Part shown: positions 57,307-62,557 of the stretch, in pieces
Position numbering within the stretch: the first letter of the stretch is position 1
Layout: each line of letters begins with the position of its first letter
DNA from: Nostoc sp. T09
GTDB lineage: Bacteria > Cyanobacteriota > Cyanobacteriia > Cyanobacteriales > Nostocaceae
Assembly (NCBI RefSeq): GCF_002154695.1
Contig: NZ_MTAV01000028.1
Coordinates: 1-64,000, forward strand
DNA: 64,000 nucleotides
Reading direction: 5' to 3'
The notes under the pieces: generated by a model
Told to the model about the DNA's origin: nothing
Databases searched by the model: none
What the model saw: the letters and a program-made list of their open reading frames with translations, nothing else
Translations under genes and position numbers: made by a program

Positions 57307-58122
57307 ATGACTTCTTCAGTTAAAGATTTGGTGCTAGTTGCTGGTGCTACTGGTGGAGTAGGGCAACTTGTAGTAGGTGAACTGCTAGAAAAAGGCTTAA
57401 GGGTTCGCATCCTGACACGCAATCCAGCAAAAGCCCAAAATATGTTTAATAACAGAGTCGAAGTTGCTGTTGGTGATATCCGCGACCCAGCTACACTTCC
57501 AGCCGCAATGGAGAATGTCACTCATATCATCTGTTGTACTGGTACTAGTGCGTTTCCTTCTAGTAAATGGGACTTTGACCCCAGTCCTAGTTGGATTGAA
57601 TGGGTTCAGTTGCTTGTTGATCGTAAACATCGTGAATCTAGAGCCAAGAACAGTCCGGCAAAGGTTGATGCTCAAGGTGTCAGTAACTTAGTAGCAGCAG
57701 CACCACCTAATCTCCAGCGATTTGTTTTCGTTTCTTCTTGCGGCATTCTGCGTAAAGATCAGCTTCCTTGGACTATTCTCAATGGCTTTGGCGTCTTGGA
57801 TGCTAAAGAAAAAGGTGAGCAAGCGATCGTTAATTCGGGATTACCCTACACTATTATCCGTCCCGGACGTTTGATTGATGGCCCTTATACCTCATACGAC
57901 CTCAACACTCTTTTTAAAGCAAAAACAGACAGCAAGTTAGGTGTGGTAATCGGCAAGGGCGATAAACTCTTAGCTGATGCTAGCCGAATTGACGTGGCCG
58001 CAGCTTGTGTGGAGTGTCTTTTTCACCCAGCGAGTGAAAAGCAAATTTTTGAATTGGTGAATCAGGGAACAAGACCGCCTGTAATTGACTGGGATCAGCT
58101 TTTCTCGCAACCAACTGTATAA
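57307..58122 (+). CDS. Atypical SDR family NAD(P)-binding protein
   Basis: 271 residues. Nucleotide-binding motif GATGGVGQLVVGELLEKG at the N-terminus, then RILTRNPAKAQ (NADP-type Arg), VGDIRDPATL and a C-terminal NmrA-like part with YTIIRPGRLIDG. This is the atypical SDR group that includes Ycf39/HCF244-type proteins. The active-site YxxxK is absent, as in many members that sense or chaperone. In photosynthetic organisms relatives assist photosystem II or chlorophyll biosynthesis; here the role is undefined. It is convergent with the small-RNA array at its 3' end. Confidence 0.88.
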   Translation: MTSSVKDLVLVAGATGGVGQLVVGELLEKGLRVRILTRNPAKAQNMFNNRVEVAVGDIRDPATLPAAMENVTHIICCTGTSAFPSSKWDFDPSPSWIEWVQLLVDRKHRESRAKNSPAKVDAQGVSNLVAAAPPNLQRFVFVSSCGILRKDQLPWTILNGFGVLDAKEKGEQAIVNSGLPYTIIRPGRLIDGPYTSYDLNTLFKAKTDSKLGVVIGKGDKLLADASRIDVAAACVECLFHPASEKQIFELVNQGTRPPVIDWDQLFSQPTV

Positions 58123-58167
58123 TTAACAGCGCAATTTATCTGAATGCGATCGCATCTGCTATCCAGA

Positions 58168-58298
58168 AGAAAAAGGCTCAGCATTAAACTAAGCCTCCTC
58201 ATATCCTGGTGCTTAAACAGACATCCCAGATTAATTTAGGACTAACTTTTGTATATTTCATCTTCCTGAGGGCTGTATCCAGTTATCCTAAAGGCTGA
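58168..58298 (-). ncRNA. Putative small RNA, copy D of a tandem family
   Basis: Minus-strand element ending in an intrinsic terminator: AGGCTTAG, TTTAATG, CTGAGCCT, TTTTTC. The plus strand would have a C-A mismatch where the minus RNA has a G-U wobble, so minus is the transcribed strand. The 5' half starts CAGCCTTTAGGATAACTGGA and carries the family boxes TACAGCCC, AGGAAGATGA and AGTCCTAAATTA. TTACACT just upstream can serve as -10. Length about 130 bases. No reading frame. Confidence 0.6.
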
Positions 58299-58360
58299 TG
58301 AGTGTAAATTTGATCAACAATCTGTCGCCACGGACAAATAATTTGTCGCTCTACAAACAT

Positions 58361-58488
58361 GAAAGAGGCTTGGTTTGTCCAAGCCTCTGTATATACCAAG
58401 CATTTACTACACCAAGCTTAATTTAGACTTACCTTTACTTGCAGTTCATCATCCTAGAGGATGTGTGCAAATTGTCTCAAGGCTGATA
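58361..58488 (-). ncRNA. Putative small RNA, copy C of a tandem family
   Basis: Ends with AGAGGCTTGG, ACAAA, CCAAGCCTCT and a short TTT. The body shows the shared boxes: CTTGAGACAATTTGCACACATCC, CTAGGATGATG and AAGTCTAAATTA, in the same order and spacing as the other copies. Its 5' end TATCAGCCTTGAG parallels copy D (CATCAGCCTTTAG), suggesting a common start. Its T-run is the weakest of the four. Confidence 0.6.
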
Positions 58489-58510
58489 GAAAGTAACCTT
58501 GTTGTTAAGA

Positions 58511-58640
58511 AAAAAAGGTTTGGTCGCGAGCCAAACCTCGATCATTGCTGTGCTTAACAACGTACTAAATAAATTTAGACCTACTCTTATGACAGAGCAT
58601 CATCCTAGGGGTTGTATCCAAATATGCCAAAAACTGCTAA
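58511..58640 (-). ncRNA. Putative small RNA, copy B of a tandem family
   Basis: Ends with AGGTTTGG, CTCGCGA, CCAAACCT, TTTTTTT: the best terminator of the set. Family boxes are TTTGGATACAACCCC, CTAGGATGATG and AGAGTAGGTCTAAATTT. TAGTAT about 25 bases upstream of the 5' box is a possible -10. The stem has compensatory changes relative to other copies (TTTGG/CCAAA instead of CTTGG/CCAAG), which supports selection on structure. Confidence 0.6.
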
Positions 58641-58722
58641 GCAATTACTTGCTGAAGATACTAGCTATGTGAAAAATTCTCAGCATATAAGCATATACTT
58701 ACATACTTATATACTATATATG

Positions 58723-58847
58723 AAAAAGGCTCGGCTAAGACCAAGCCTCCAGATATACCAGGTGTTTACCATATATAGATAATTTAGACATACTCTTCTT
58801 AGATATCATCTTTCTATTTGGGGTGTACAAATATTCCTAAAAGTGTT
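58723..58847 (-). ncRNA. Putative small RNA, copy A of a tandem family
   Basis: First copy in the direction of transcription. Ends with AGGCTTGG, TCTTAG, CCGAGCCT, TTTTTC; again a G-U wobble that would be a C-A mismatch on plus. Boxes: TTTAGGAATATTTGTACACCCC, GAAAGATGAT and AGAGTATGTCTAAATTA. It is separated from the histidine kinase gene by the terminator at 58941-58966, so it probably has its own promoter. Confidence 0.6.
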
Positions 58848-58940: not shown

Positions 58941-58966
58941 AAGGCCCTGGATAGACTCCAGGGCGA
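58941..58966 (-). terminator. Terminator of the sensory kinase operon
   Basis: Minus strand: GCCCTGG, AGTCTAT, CCAGGGC, then CTTATTTTTAAG. Seven GC-rich pairs and a T-rich trailer. It lies about 170 bases past the kinase stop at 59139 and before the first small-RNA copy, so it separates the two transcription units. Confidence 0.7.
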
Positions 58967-59138: not shown

Positions 59139-60671
59139 CTACTCGTTGAAAGGAACTACTAAATCAGTTAGTGTGAGCGAGAAAATTGTCCATCCCTCGC
59201 TGCTTTCTACTTGAATGCTGCCTTGGAGTTGTTCCATTATCTTTTGTACTATGGCTAATCCTAACCCCGTACCGCCTTGTTTCGAGTAGTCTGCATTAGG
59301 GATGCGATAGAATTTCTCAAAAATTCGCGCTAATTCTGCTGTGGGAATTTCTACTGAGTTACTAACAGTAATGATAGTTTGCGGGGGTGCTACCGAGAAG
59401 TTATGACGCACATTTACGATGATTTCACCGCCAGCAGGAGTATATTTGCAGGCGTTATTGAGCAATTCTATTAATATTCGTTCTAAGCTGGTGCGGTCTG
59501 ATATCAATGCTGGCAGATGAGAAGGGACATTTAGCTGTAGAGTTTGTTGATGTTCTGCAACACGAGCTTGAAACGGCTCGATCAATAAAGGTAACCAATC
59601 CTGTAATAGTAGTGCGTCAGGAGCAATGGGGAAATAGCAAGAAGTTTCCAGTCGTTGTAAGTCTAACAAATCGTTAATGAGAGCTATCTCGCGATCGCAC
59701 TCAGCTCTCATCAAATCCAGATAACGCTGGAATGTCTGAGGATTGGTAGAGACTTGCAATACTTCAATCATCACCTTCATGTTGTTGAGAGGCGATCGCA
59801 ATTCATGGGAAGCTAAATTTAAAAAATCATTTTTAAGTTGATTGAGTTCTTCTAACTGCGCTACAAGTTGCGTTTGCTCAATTTCCCTTTTCCGCGCTTC
59901 ACTAGCCTTTTTGCGCTCAGTAATATCCCGAAATATCAAAACTGCACCTATAATATTATCTTTGTCATCTCTAATTGGTGCAGCACTATCATCAATTGGT
60001 ACTTCCTGACCATCTTTAGCAATTAGAATAGTTTCTTCCGGTAGTTCGATGACTGCACCATCTTGAAGAACTTTTTTGATCGGACTTTCAATAGAGTTAC
60101 GAGTTGCTGCATTGGCAATGTTAAATATTTCTGCTGAATTTCTTCCCAAAGCTTCTTCTTGTTGCCATCCTGTCAAATTTTCTGCCACAGAATTCATAAA
60201 ATTTACTGACTCTTGGACATCGCTAGCAATTACTCCATCACCTATACTTCTAAGCAATGTAGATAGCCATTTCTGGCTGGCTTTTAATTCTTTTTCTAGC
60301 CTATGTTTAGTCAATGCTATTTCAATATTAGTTTGTAGTTCTCTTTCTTTAAAAGGTTTGAGTAGATAACCAAATGGCTCAGTAACCTTTGCTCGCTCTA
60401 ATGTATTATCATCCGCATAAGCAGTTAGGTAAATTATAGGTATATCTAAATGCTTATGAATTTCTTGAGCAGCTTCTACACCATCCATTTCACCTTTCAA
60501 TCTAATATCCATTAGCACTAAATCTGGACAAAATTCTAGTGCTTTATTAATTGCATCTTGTCCTGAAGAAGCAACGCCAGGAACCATATAACCAAATCTT
60601 GTCAGTCGATTTCGTAAATCCTTAGCCACAATAGCTTCATCTTCTACAACCAAAATCTTGGCGTTTGTCAT
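59139..60671 (-). CDS. Response regulator-PAS-histidine kinase hybrid
   Basis: 510 residues from ATG 60671 (MTNAKILVVEDE); a longer frame starting upstream would overlap the preceding gene by 100 bases and is rejected. Order: receiver domain (ILVVEDEAIVAKDLRNRL, phospho-acceptor Asp in LVLMDIRLKG, Lys in YLLKPFKE), a PAS domain (WLSTLLRSIGDGVIASD...), HisKA with phospho-His in LASHELRSPLNNMK, and HATPase_c with NNACKYTP and GGTGLGLAIVQ. An N-terminal receiver lets it be switched by another kinase. It begins 17 bases after the ethylene-receptor-like kinase, forming a likely relay in one operon. Cytosolic. Confidence 0.9.
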   Translation of the reverse strand: MTNAKILVVEDEAIVAKDLRNRLTRFGYMVPGVASSGQDAINKALEFCPDLVLMDIRLKGEMDGVEAAQEIHKHLDIPIIYLTAYADDNTLERAKVTEPFGYLLKPFKERELQTNIEIALTKHRLEKELKASQKWLSTLLRSIGDGVIASDVQESVNFMNSVAENLTGWQQEEALGRNSAEIFNIANAATRNSIESPIKKVLQDGAVIELPEETILIAKDGQEVPIDDSAAPIRDDKDNIIGAVLIFRDITERKKASEARKREIEQTQLVAQLEELNQLKNDFLNLASHELRSPLNNMKVMIEVLQVSTNPQTFQRYLDLMRAECDREIALINDLLDLQRLETSCYFPIAPDALLLQDWLPLLIEPFQARVAEHQQTLQLNVPSHLPALISDRTSLERILIELLNNACKYTPAGGEIIVNVRHNFSVAPPQTIITVSNSVEIPTAELARIFEKFYRIPNADYSKQGGTGLGLAIVQKIMEQLQGSIQVESSEGWTIFSLTLTDLVVPFNE

Positions 60672-60688
60672 TTGGTATCTCTGTACAA

Positions 60689-62557
60689 TTATCCTATGGG
60701 AAATGATATCTGGAATTCTACTCCGATATCGCTGTGAATATTGATATCGCCTATAAGCTGACTGGCTAACGCATCTACTAATTGCCAACCTAATGATGCT
60801 GTATCTGTAAAATTGAAGTTTGCAGGTAAACCAATGCCATTATCACGAATAGTAAGTAAAATTCTATTTTCTAATATTTTTCTAATTGCGATGCCAATTT
60901 CACCATTTCTCCCCAATGGGAATGCATATTTTAAAGAATTAGAAACAAGTTCATGAATAATTAATCCACAAGGAATTGCTGTATCTAAGCCTAGTAAAAT
61001 ATGCTCTTCGATATCTATATTCAGGGCGATCGCATCTTCAGAGACTTCGTATGTAGTCAATAAAGTTGCTACCAAATCTTGGACATATTCACCGAAATTA
61101 ATTCTCGATAAGTCTCGTGATTGATACATTTTTTCGTGAACCAAAGCCATTGATGCGATCCGCATTTGGCTTTGTTGGAATATTTCCATATCCTGTTTGT
61201 CTTTGATATATTCAGATTGCAAGCTCAACAGGCTGGAAATTACCTGGAAATTGTTTTTGACCCGATGATAAATTTCTTTTAATAGAACCTCTTTTTCTCG
61301 AAGTGATGCTTGGATTTGTTCCTCTGATTGCTTGCGATCGCTAATATCCTCGATTACAGCAATAAAATACTTTGGAATACCAGAAGGTTCGTGAACTAAA
61401 GATACAGTTACATTAATCCAGACTATAGAACTGTCTTTACGTAAATAACGCTTTTCCAAAGAGAAAGTAGGAATATCACCTGCTAATATTTGGTCAACGT
61501 ATTTCAGACTGGCTTTCATGTCATCTGGATAAGTAATATCTTTGAAAGTTCGCAATTGTAGTTCTTGGGATGTATAACCAACAATATCGCAAAGCCTTTG
61601 GTTAACTAATAACCACCGTCCATCAATTCCCACATGAGCAATACCAACAGCTGCTTGATCGAATGCGGCACGAAATCGCTGTTCGCTTTCTCGTAATGCC
61701 TCCTCGATTCGCTGACGTTCAGTAATTTCTGCCTGTAGTGATGCGTTAATTCTTTTTAACTCTACTGTCCGTTCCTCAACTTTGCTTTCTAATTGGTCGA
61801 GTAGTTGGCTGAGATTTTCCTCTGCTTGCTTACGCTCGGTAATATCAGTATGCGAGCCTACCATCCGCACTACTTTACCATCTTCATCCCACAGCGCTTG
61901 ACCCCGATCCAAAATCCATTTGTATGCGCCGTCTTTACATAAAACACGATACTCCTTAGTGTAAAACGGTGTTCTCTTAGCAAAGTGATCCTTAACTGCT
62001 TTTTTCACCCTATCGAGATCATTTGGATGCACTCGTTTGATCATTTCATCGAAATGGTTGGAAATCTCTTGCTCTTGATAACCGAGCATTTCCTTCCAGC
62101 GAGCCGAGAAGAAAACTTCATTATTTTTAACGTTCCAGTCCCAAATGCCATCGTTATTACCACGCAGAGCTAACTGCCAACGTTGTTCACTTTCTCTTAA
62201 CTCCTCCTCGGTTCGTTTGCGTTCAACAATTTCCTTGGCTAGTTGGCAGTTTGCTGCTTCTAATTCGGCAGGGCTAGGTAGAACAAGCGCTTTAGGAATT
62301 AATGACACCAGTTCTATAGCTGTATATACAGATACAAAGGCAGTGATAGCTTTAATCAGTCCTGATAGCCAATAGGTGGGATGCCAAAGCGTCCACACTT
62401 CTATGACATGGGTTGTGCCACAAGCAACGATGAATGTGCCAAACATCAGAAAAATCCAGTCGAAAGGCACATCTCTTCGCTTGCGGACAAAATAAACCAG
62501 CATCACTGGAATTGAATAATAAGCCAGTGCAATTAGCGAATCTGAGATGATATGCAA
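60689..62557 (-). CDS. Ethylene-receptor-like histidine kinase
   Basis: 622 residues from the first usable codon, a TTG. The membrane domain is of the ETR1 type: [20 protein letters not shown] and [20 protein letters not shown] with the copper/ethylene Cys46 and His50. Two PAS domains follow (about 130-250 and 285-410), then a HisKA_2 kinase with His in [11 protein letters not shown] and HATPase motif NSLKYAF. Upstream codons spell [16 protein letters not shown], the usual start of these proteins, but are cut from an ATG at 62643 by a stop; one extra T in a run of nine would restore a 651-residue protein. Ethylene or related-signal sensing is expected; phosphotransfer to the downstream hybrid is inferred. 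Confidence 0.85.

Follow-up and report, generated by a model that had tools for sequence, protein, structure and literature searches.

Four predicted tandem small RNA genes of Nostoc sp. T09 as probable diverged paralogs of the RF02596 sRNA

The window analysed here is a 64,000-nucleotide stretch of the genome of Nostoc sp. T09. Its minus strand carries four diverged, same-strand units with terminators, which together span positions 58165-58842, as read from the sequence and from their mutual alignment. The units A (58718-58842), B (58507-58633), C (58357-58482) and D (58165-58294) can be aligned with each other along their full length. These boundaries come from the model R1, which was trained on 39 copies including the four of the window, so that R1 matches A to D by construction. 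An earlier note on this DNA had described four diverged minus-strand copies of an element of about 130 bases. The copies are present as claimed, according to sequence, alignment and blastn relatives; the length does recur four times, but it probably corresponds to promoter plus RNA and not to RNA alone.

The array is flanked by the gene of an NAD(P)-binding protein (57307-58122, plus strand) and by a response-regulator/PAS/histidine-kinase gene (59139-60788, minus strand), which is preceded by an ETR1-type kinase gene (60689-62557, minus strand). Pfam assigned the five neighbour proteins as NAD(P)-binding protein, response-regulator kinase, ETR1-type kinase, DUF6825 and ABC1 kinase. The kinase pair (59139-62557, minus strand), the ETR1-type kinase followed by the receiver-PAS-kinase, lies upstream of the array on the array's strand, and relatives of the two occur near the array in seven and eight of the compared loci, respectively. 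The adjacent two-component genes were considered as regulators of the array and rejected, as the domains that Pfam finds in them (receiver, PAS, kinase) include none for binding DNA; moreover, the neighbours of the array differ from lineage to lineage. A terminator-like hairpin, GCCCTGGAGTCTATCCAGGGC, is located between the kinase gene and copy A, outside the sRNA units (58944-58964, minus strand). A short interspersed repeat (GCGACAAATTATTTGTC... GGCGACAGATTGTTGATC; 58306-58357, minus strand) immediately follows the terminator of copy C, and pieces of it (query 529-580) match scattered sites in 8 of 58 genomes by blastn.

Each unit is predicted to comprise a conserved upstream promoter box, a -10 element TAAATT, and a short RNA with a terminator, all on the minus strand. 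In copy A, the upstream box (TTTGTACACCCC..TAGAAAGATGA) lies at 58806..58831, within a 45-bit match to the promoter-only model R2 (58779-58835), and the predicted -10 at 58781..58786, an element with 1.93 bits per column in 204 members. The predicted RNA, of type A and about 52 nt (AUAUGGUAAACACCUGG... plus terminator; 58723..58774), begins with the A at 58774, 7 nt past TAAATT, and conservation within type A climbs at this +1. The upstream box of copy B (58597..58622; R2 58570-58625, 47.6 bits) contains the ACAACCCC and TAGGATGATG boxes of the earlier note. The -10 of copy B (58572..58577) is predicted from sequence, spacing and R2, and its RNA of about 56 nt (GUACGUUGUUAAGCACAGCAAUGAUC plus terminator; 58510..58565) from the start of the Rfam family RF02596 at 58565. 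Likewise, copy C has an upstream box at 58446..58471 (R2 58418-58473, 45.3 bits), a predicted -10 at 58420..58425 (sequence, spacing and R2) and a predicted RNA of about 53 nt (GGUGUAGUAAAUGCUUGGUAU... plus terminator; 58361..58413), with the RF02596 start at 58413. For copy D, the upstream box is at 58258..58283 (R2 58230-58281, 33.3 bits), the -10 is predicted inside TCCTAAATT at 58233..58238 (sequence and R2), and the predicted RNA measures about 57-58 nt ((G)GGAUGUCUGUUUAAGCACC... plus terminator; 58170..58227), with a predicted +1 at 58226. The C-rich boxes and the GATGATG-like box are as the earlier note described them. Its very conserved box, GTCTAAATT, is exact in copies A to C, but copy D has GTCCTAAATT.

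Relatives of the array were sought with several methods. With the window alone, blastn matched 26 of 58 genomes, own included; six of these match solely in the interspersed repeat (query 529-580) and 20 within the sRNA units. A pattern scan of named genomes returned 29 stretches, 23 from Nostoc, Calothrix and kin, and six chance occurrences elsewhere. R1 matched 117 of 192 genomes of the host's taxonomic family, 110 of them at three or more sites, and an order-wide draw of 243 genomes gave 16 R1 matches, all in that same family. Nostoc sp. T09 itself contains six good members, namely A to D, C97:112617-112745 (76.5 bits) and C143:7613-7736 (61.1 bits), and two further weak R1 matches of 29 and 27 bits. 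Within this genome, blastn recovered the array itself only; the two further good members needed R1. The member at G000:C143:7613-7736 (L134) is a lone, much diverged one with another 5' half (UGAGUCUUUCACUUCUAU), beside a gene that resembles murD by eye.

The order of the copies is constant in the loci read. In 50 loci with at least two members, the strand is uniform within each locus, and the types recognised by the search patterns come in the order E-(F)-A-(A)-B-C-D, with H replacing D twice and 12 members unclassified. The sole apparent exception, L157, has a C copy with one change that the pattern typed as A. In G019, a small genome, two copies are oppositely oriented. A-B-C-D is the order in the window and in Nostoc sp. 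106C (L067), and G007 has D elsewhere. Array neighbours change from one lineage to another; those that members of a lineage have in common are the kinase pair and two proteins recognised by eye, an agmatinase-like protein and a copper-type ATPase. In one locus (L172, G110:C1:3127000-3146000), the whole array and an ATPase-like gene, recognised by eye, occur twice, 5.3 kb apart; this is either a true duplication or an assembly artefact, the genome being listed with 6% contamination.

No Rfam family, including Yfr1, Yfr2 and the other Rfam sRNAs, reaches its curated cut-off within the window, nor does NsiR8 (RF02593) match there. In a relaxed-threshold scan, RF02596 (cyano_het_sRNA, 56 positions) aligns from position 1 to 56, its full length, with all four copies, below the cut-off. 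Against a cut-off of 35.7 bits, D scores 27.0, B 24.4, C 22.7 and A 17.0, with E values of 0.0053, 0.023, 0.059 and 1.5, respectively. In B and C, position 1 of RF02596 coincides with the predicted start; in D (58227-58171) it lies within 1 nt of it, and the match of copy A is weak and out of register (58795-58724). On the opposite strand, the palindromic terminator of copy B scores 20.7 bits against RF02596 by itself, and much of the scores of A to D is thus due to the terminator. Some array copies in other genomes reach the cut-off, at 35.7-41.8 bits. Sequence kinship supports regarding the window copies as diverged paralogs of the RF02596 sRNA, and not as members at the curated cut-off.

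The founder RF02596 gene of Nostoc sp. T09 lies separate from the array (G000:C97:112623-112678, 75 bits). Strong RF02596 matches occur in 115 of the 192 genomes of the host's taxonomic family, usually one each. Both RF02596 and R1 match in 114 genomes, two sets that are not independent, since R1 matches the founder gene too. Among 14 control genomes, five have RF02596 matches at E ≤ 0.5, none over the cut-off and none at E ≤ 0.0001. In Nostoc sp. T09, NsiR8 (RF02593, 171 nt) is situated just upstream of the founder on the same strand, with the two starts 375 nt apart. NsiR8 also stands beside the founder in L210 and is not above the cut-off in L127 (two of three loci), and among 20 further loci, 14 have it upstream of RF02596 (in L237, for instance, with 317 nt between the starts). 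In the account of Nostoc sp. PCC 7120 given in PMC4734099, NsiR8 (171 nt) starts at 4547556r, and a 51-nt sRNA, 4547237r, starts 319 nt further on. RF02596 is almost certainly this sRNA, an identity inferred because both sit just downstream of NsiR8 on one strand. The founder sRNA is already known: according to the same source, a small number of dRNA-Seq reads and a primer extension located the start of 4547237r. A Northern blot showed its transcript, which became more abundant as cultures grew denser and was there under prolonged nitrogen deficiency (PMC4734099).

The founder genes are strong RF02596 matches downstream of the same promoter block as the array copies. In 59 hand-chosen promoter-RF02596 pairs, for each of which the RF02596 match nearest the expected place was taken, the distance from TAAATT to the RF02596 start is 6-7 nt in 43 and 4 nt in 8, and the remaining 8 have the start elsewhere; 14 of the 59 pairs are still off by 3 nt or more. 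In genome G131 (C1, minus strand), array starts are predicted near 104378, 104533 and 104948, and RF02596 puts two of them at 104531 and 104951. An RF02596 start 6-7 nt after TAAATT, a 5' segment and a terminator are features common to founder and copies. For the link between promoter and RNA, the founder loci offer firmer ground than the RF02596 scores of the array copies.

A profile search over the collected loci gave 272 distinct family members, the weakest of which are doubtful. Of the 205 members whose boxes are clear, 192 have a gap of exactly 16 nt between GGAAGATGA and GTCTAAATT, 12 a gap of 17 nt and one a gap of 14 nt; a purine occurs 7 nt past TAAATT in 211 of 222 members. Diverged members lose GTC and keep TAAATT. 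In 204 non-redundant members, the information per column is 1.25 bits in the upstream block and 1.93 bits in TAAATT; it falls to 0.39-0.54 bits after the start, a drop partly due to the ungapped register and to length differences. Within types, the first 20 nt carry 1.93-1.95 bits in C, 1.64-1.94 in E, 1.65-1.72 in B and 1.54-1.64 in A; type D is weaker (1.07-1.45 bits), with little rise at +1. The spacer is also fairly conserved within types, at 0.65-1.17 bits. Judged by conservation, boxes common to all types and 5' halves particular to each are the pattern of one promoter driving different RNAs. Since the spacing is fixed and the conserved RNA of each type begins about 7 nt past TAAATT, all three boxes of the earlier note (C-rich, GATGATG and GTCTAAATT) most likely belong to promoter DNA and not to the RNA. 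No good -35 hexamer was found in this module. In 14 genomes, R2, whose training sequences included a founder promoter, matched the array copies and the RF02596 gene in every one and few other sites; a search for a wider regulon with it yielded no convincing protein-coding gene among the matches listed. One match away from both array and founder reaches 31 bits (G032:C1:5244198-5244244, plus strand), and there are weaker extra matches too.

These observations bear on the idea, put forward in the earlier note, that an RNA of about 130 nt holds all three boxes and pairs with G-rich ribosome binding sites through an open C-rich box. The conservation of the boxes across paralogs would suit such an RNA, but their spacing is fixed as in a promoter with free sequence between them, GTC varies where TAAATT stays, and the C-rich box is replaced in many relatives, for example by CAGCCTATAGG. 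In addition, the start of RF02596 lies past all three boxes in copies B, C and D, as it does in most of the loci compared. Because the boxes behave as a promoter, upstream of the start deduced from type conservation and RF02596, pairing by the C-rich box is not supported, and the long RNA is very improbable. An equally slim chance attaches to RNAs of about 95 nt from a sigma-70-like promoter, TTGGCA-17-TAGGAT or TTGAGA-18-TAGGAT, in copies B and C. Both sites were found by a scan, but their count is that of chance (3 found, 3.3 expected), TAGGAT becomes AAGGAA in B orthologs and is TAGAAA and TCAGGA in A and D, and RF02596 starts further downstream. The TTGGCA-TAGGAT promoter, at chance level in the scan and not conserved, was dropped.

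The terminators carry their own signs of selection. As the earlier note had recognised, the stems of A and D keep a G-U pair where the opposite strand would have C-A, and copy B swaps a C-G for a U-A pair. A set of 125 distinct rows, taken from the best 150 of 320 matches, shows 96.2% pairing in the stem, and two-sided changes fill 119 cells against 40.6 in shuffles, in an alignment fitted to the structure beforehand. A mechanical terminator scan found B and C, missed A and D, and returned one hairpin outside the units. The predicted RNAs of the window fold as the terminator, to which B and C add a small 5' hairpin, with z values between -2.6 and -4.4 relative to shuffled sequences. For the founder RNA, the fold is no better than that of its shuffles (z -0.15).

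Decaying or inert duplicates of RF02596 would explain the degraded terminators or promoters of some members and the variation of array content between loci. They fit poorly with the strong conservation of the 5' half in types B, C and E over 46, 45 and 36 loci, with the constant order in the loci read and with the covarying terminators, and loss of function in the array accordingly has little probability. Least probable of all are small peptide genes, suggested by short ATG-led frames in copies A and B but contradicted, by eye, by stops and non-triplet length differences between members, or a mobile repeat, against which one strand and order are kept and neighbours are common within lineages. 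No conserved reading frame was seen by eye, in agreement with the earlier note.

With a probability of roughly 0.8, the array is best explained as four tandem sRNA genes, each a transcription unit of its own, that are diverged paralogs of RF02596/4547237r. This reading is weakened by the terminator of B, because it alone scores as given above on the opposite strand. Types, order, covariation and RF02596 kinship support, at the level of sequence, paralogous minus-strand small RNAs with selected terminators, which the earlier note had proposed. Each unit would comprise an activator/-35 block (TTTG.ACACA..CCTATAGGAAGATGA, about -57 to -32), the -10 TAAATT, a start about 7 nt past it, a type-specific 5' segment of 26-30 nt and an intrinsic terminator. 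It would be transcribed alone into an RNA of 52-58 nt. The array copies may be co-regulated with RF02596 through the common promoter and a putative activator, and their 5' segments may pair with different mRNAs, so that the array would give several related specificities from one signal.

In 14 genomes, possible targets were sought as 17-mers complementary to the type B RNA or the founder RNA, with up to two mismatches allowed and a reversed-pattern control. Type B gave 36 matches. The sRNA gene itself accounts for 14, and the remaining 22 are no excess over the 21 of the control. The founder gave 23, of which 14 are self; the 9 others compare with 6 in the control, and in all 9 no gene recurs, as far as could be seen. 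Among the 16 of 22 non-self type B matches inspected, three, from the own genome and two other genera, precede one ferritin-like gene, 3-19 nt upstream of the start codon. A 19-nt leader block, TTTGCTGAACTTAACAACT (L270, L278, L281, ~1500-1519), is identical in the three genera, in a leader that otherwise diverges; the block adjoins the ferritin-like start codon and has no obvious Shine-Dalgarno sequence. The duplex of type B with this leader has a predicted energy of -21.0 to -22.4 kcal/mol, and 21 of 688 ORF-start windows reach -20. The ferritin-like mRNA is a candidate type B target, kept as a weak lead only because this energy rank is ordinary. A broader and rather doubtful proposal sees the arrays as an ancient, ordered set of up to six sRNAs that differ in pairing sequence and are all switched on, together with the NsiR8-side founder, by one dedicated putative activator. 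One starvation or developmental signal might thereby reach several sets of mRNAs, for instance through type B acting on the ferritin-like leader.

Several known systems resemble the array in part, RF02596/4547237r most closely. RF02596/4547237r shares with the window copies a length of about 51-56 nt, a 5' segment plus terminator, the promoter block and the same family of genomes. RF02596 proper, however, occurs as a single gene that mostly neighbours NsiR8, and its 5' half is the same over at least 20 bases in 17 loci compared, whereas the window has four tandem genes with other 5' halves. Groups of several paralogous sRNAs that answer one signal are exemplified by Qrr1-5 and LhrC1-5, which keep much the same pairing region; the siblings are alike there, whereas each type here has its own conserved 5' half. 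NsiR1 also forms tandem small-RNA repeats in heterocystous cyanobacteria, upstream of hetF (PMC3610870). In the window, however, hetF is not among the five neighbour proteins tested with Pfam, and the copies are diverged, each apparently with its own promoter and terminator. Yfr1 and Yfr2 are likewise short cyanobacterial sRNAs with a terminator (PMC4734099), but have no match at the Rfam cut-off in the window. The name RF02596 was not found in the literature searched, and neither was a description of the array, of which the supplementary table of PMC4734099 may list members. What appears to be new is the array itself, in which siblings with diversified seeds keep one order and share a private promoter module.

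A single, weakly expressed sRNA known from heterocystous cyanobacteria appears to stand at the head of a multigene family whose order is conserved and whose promoter module is private. If true, this would offer a handle on a transcription factor behind the promoter module. It would also provide a natural set of sequence-diversified sibling sRNAs, the targets of which could be compared across more than 100 genomes.
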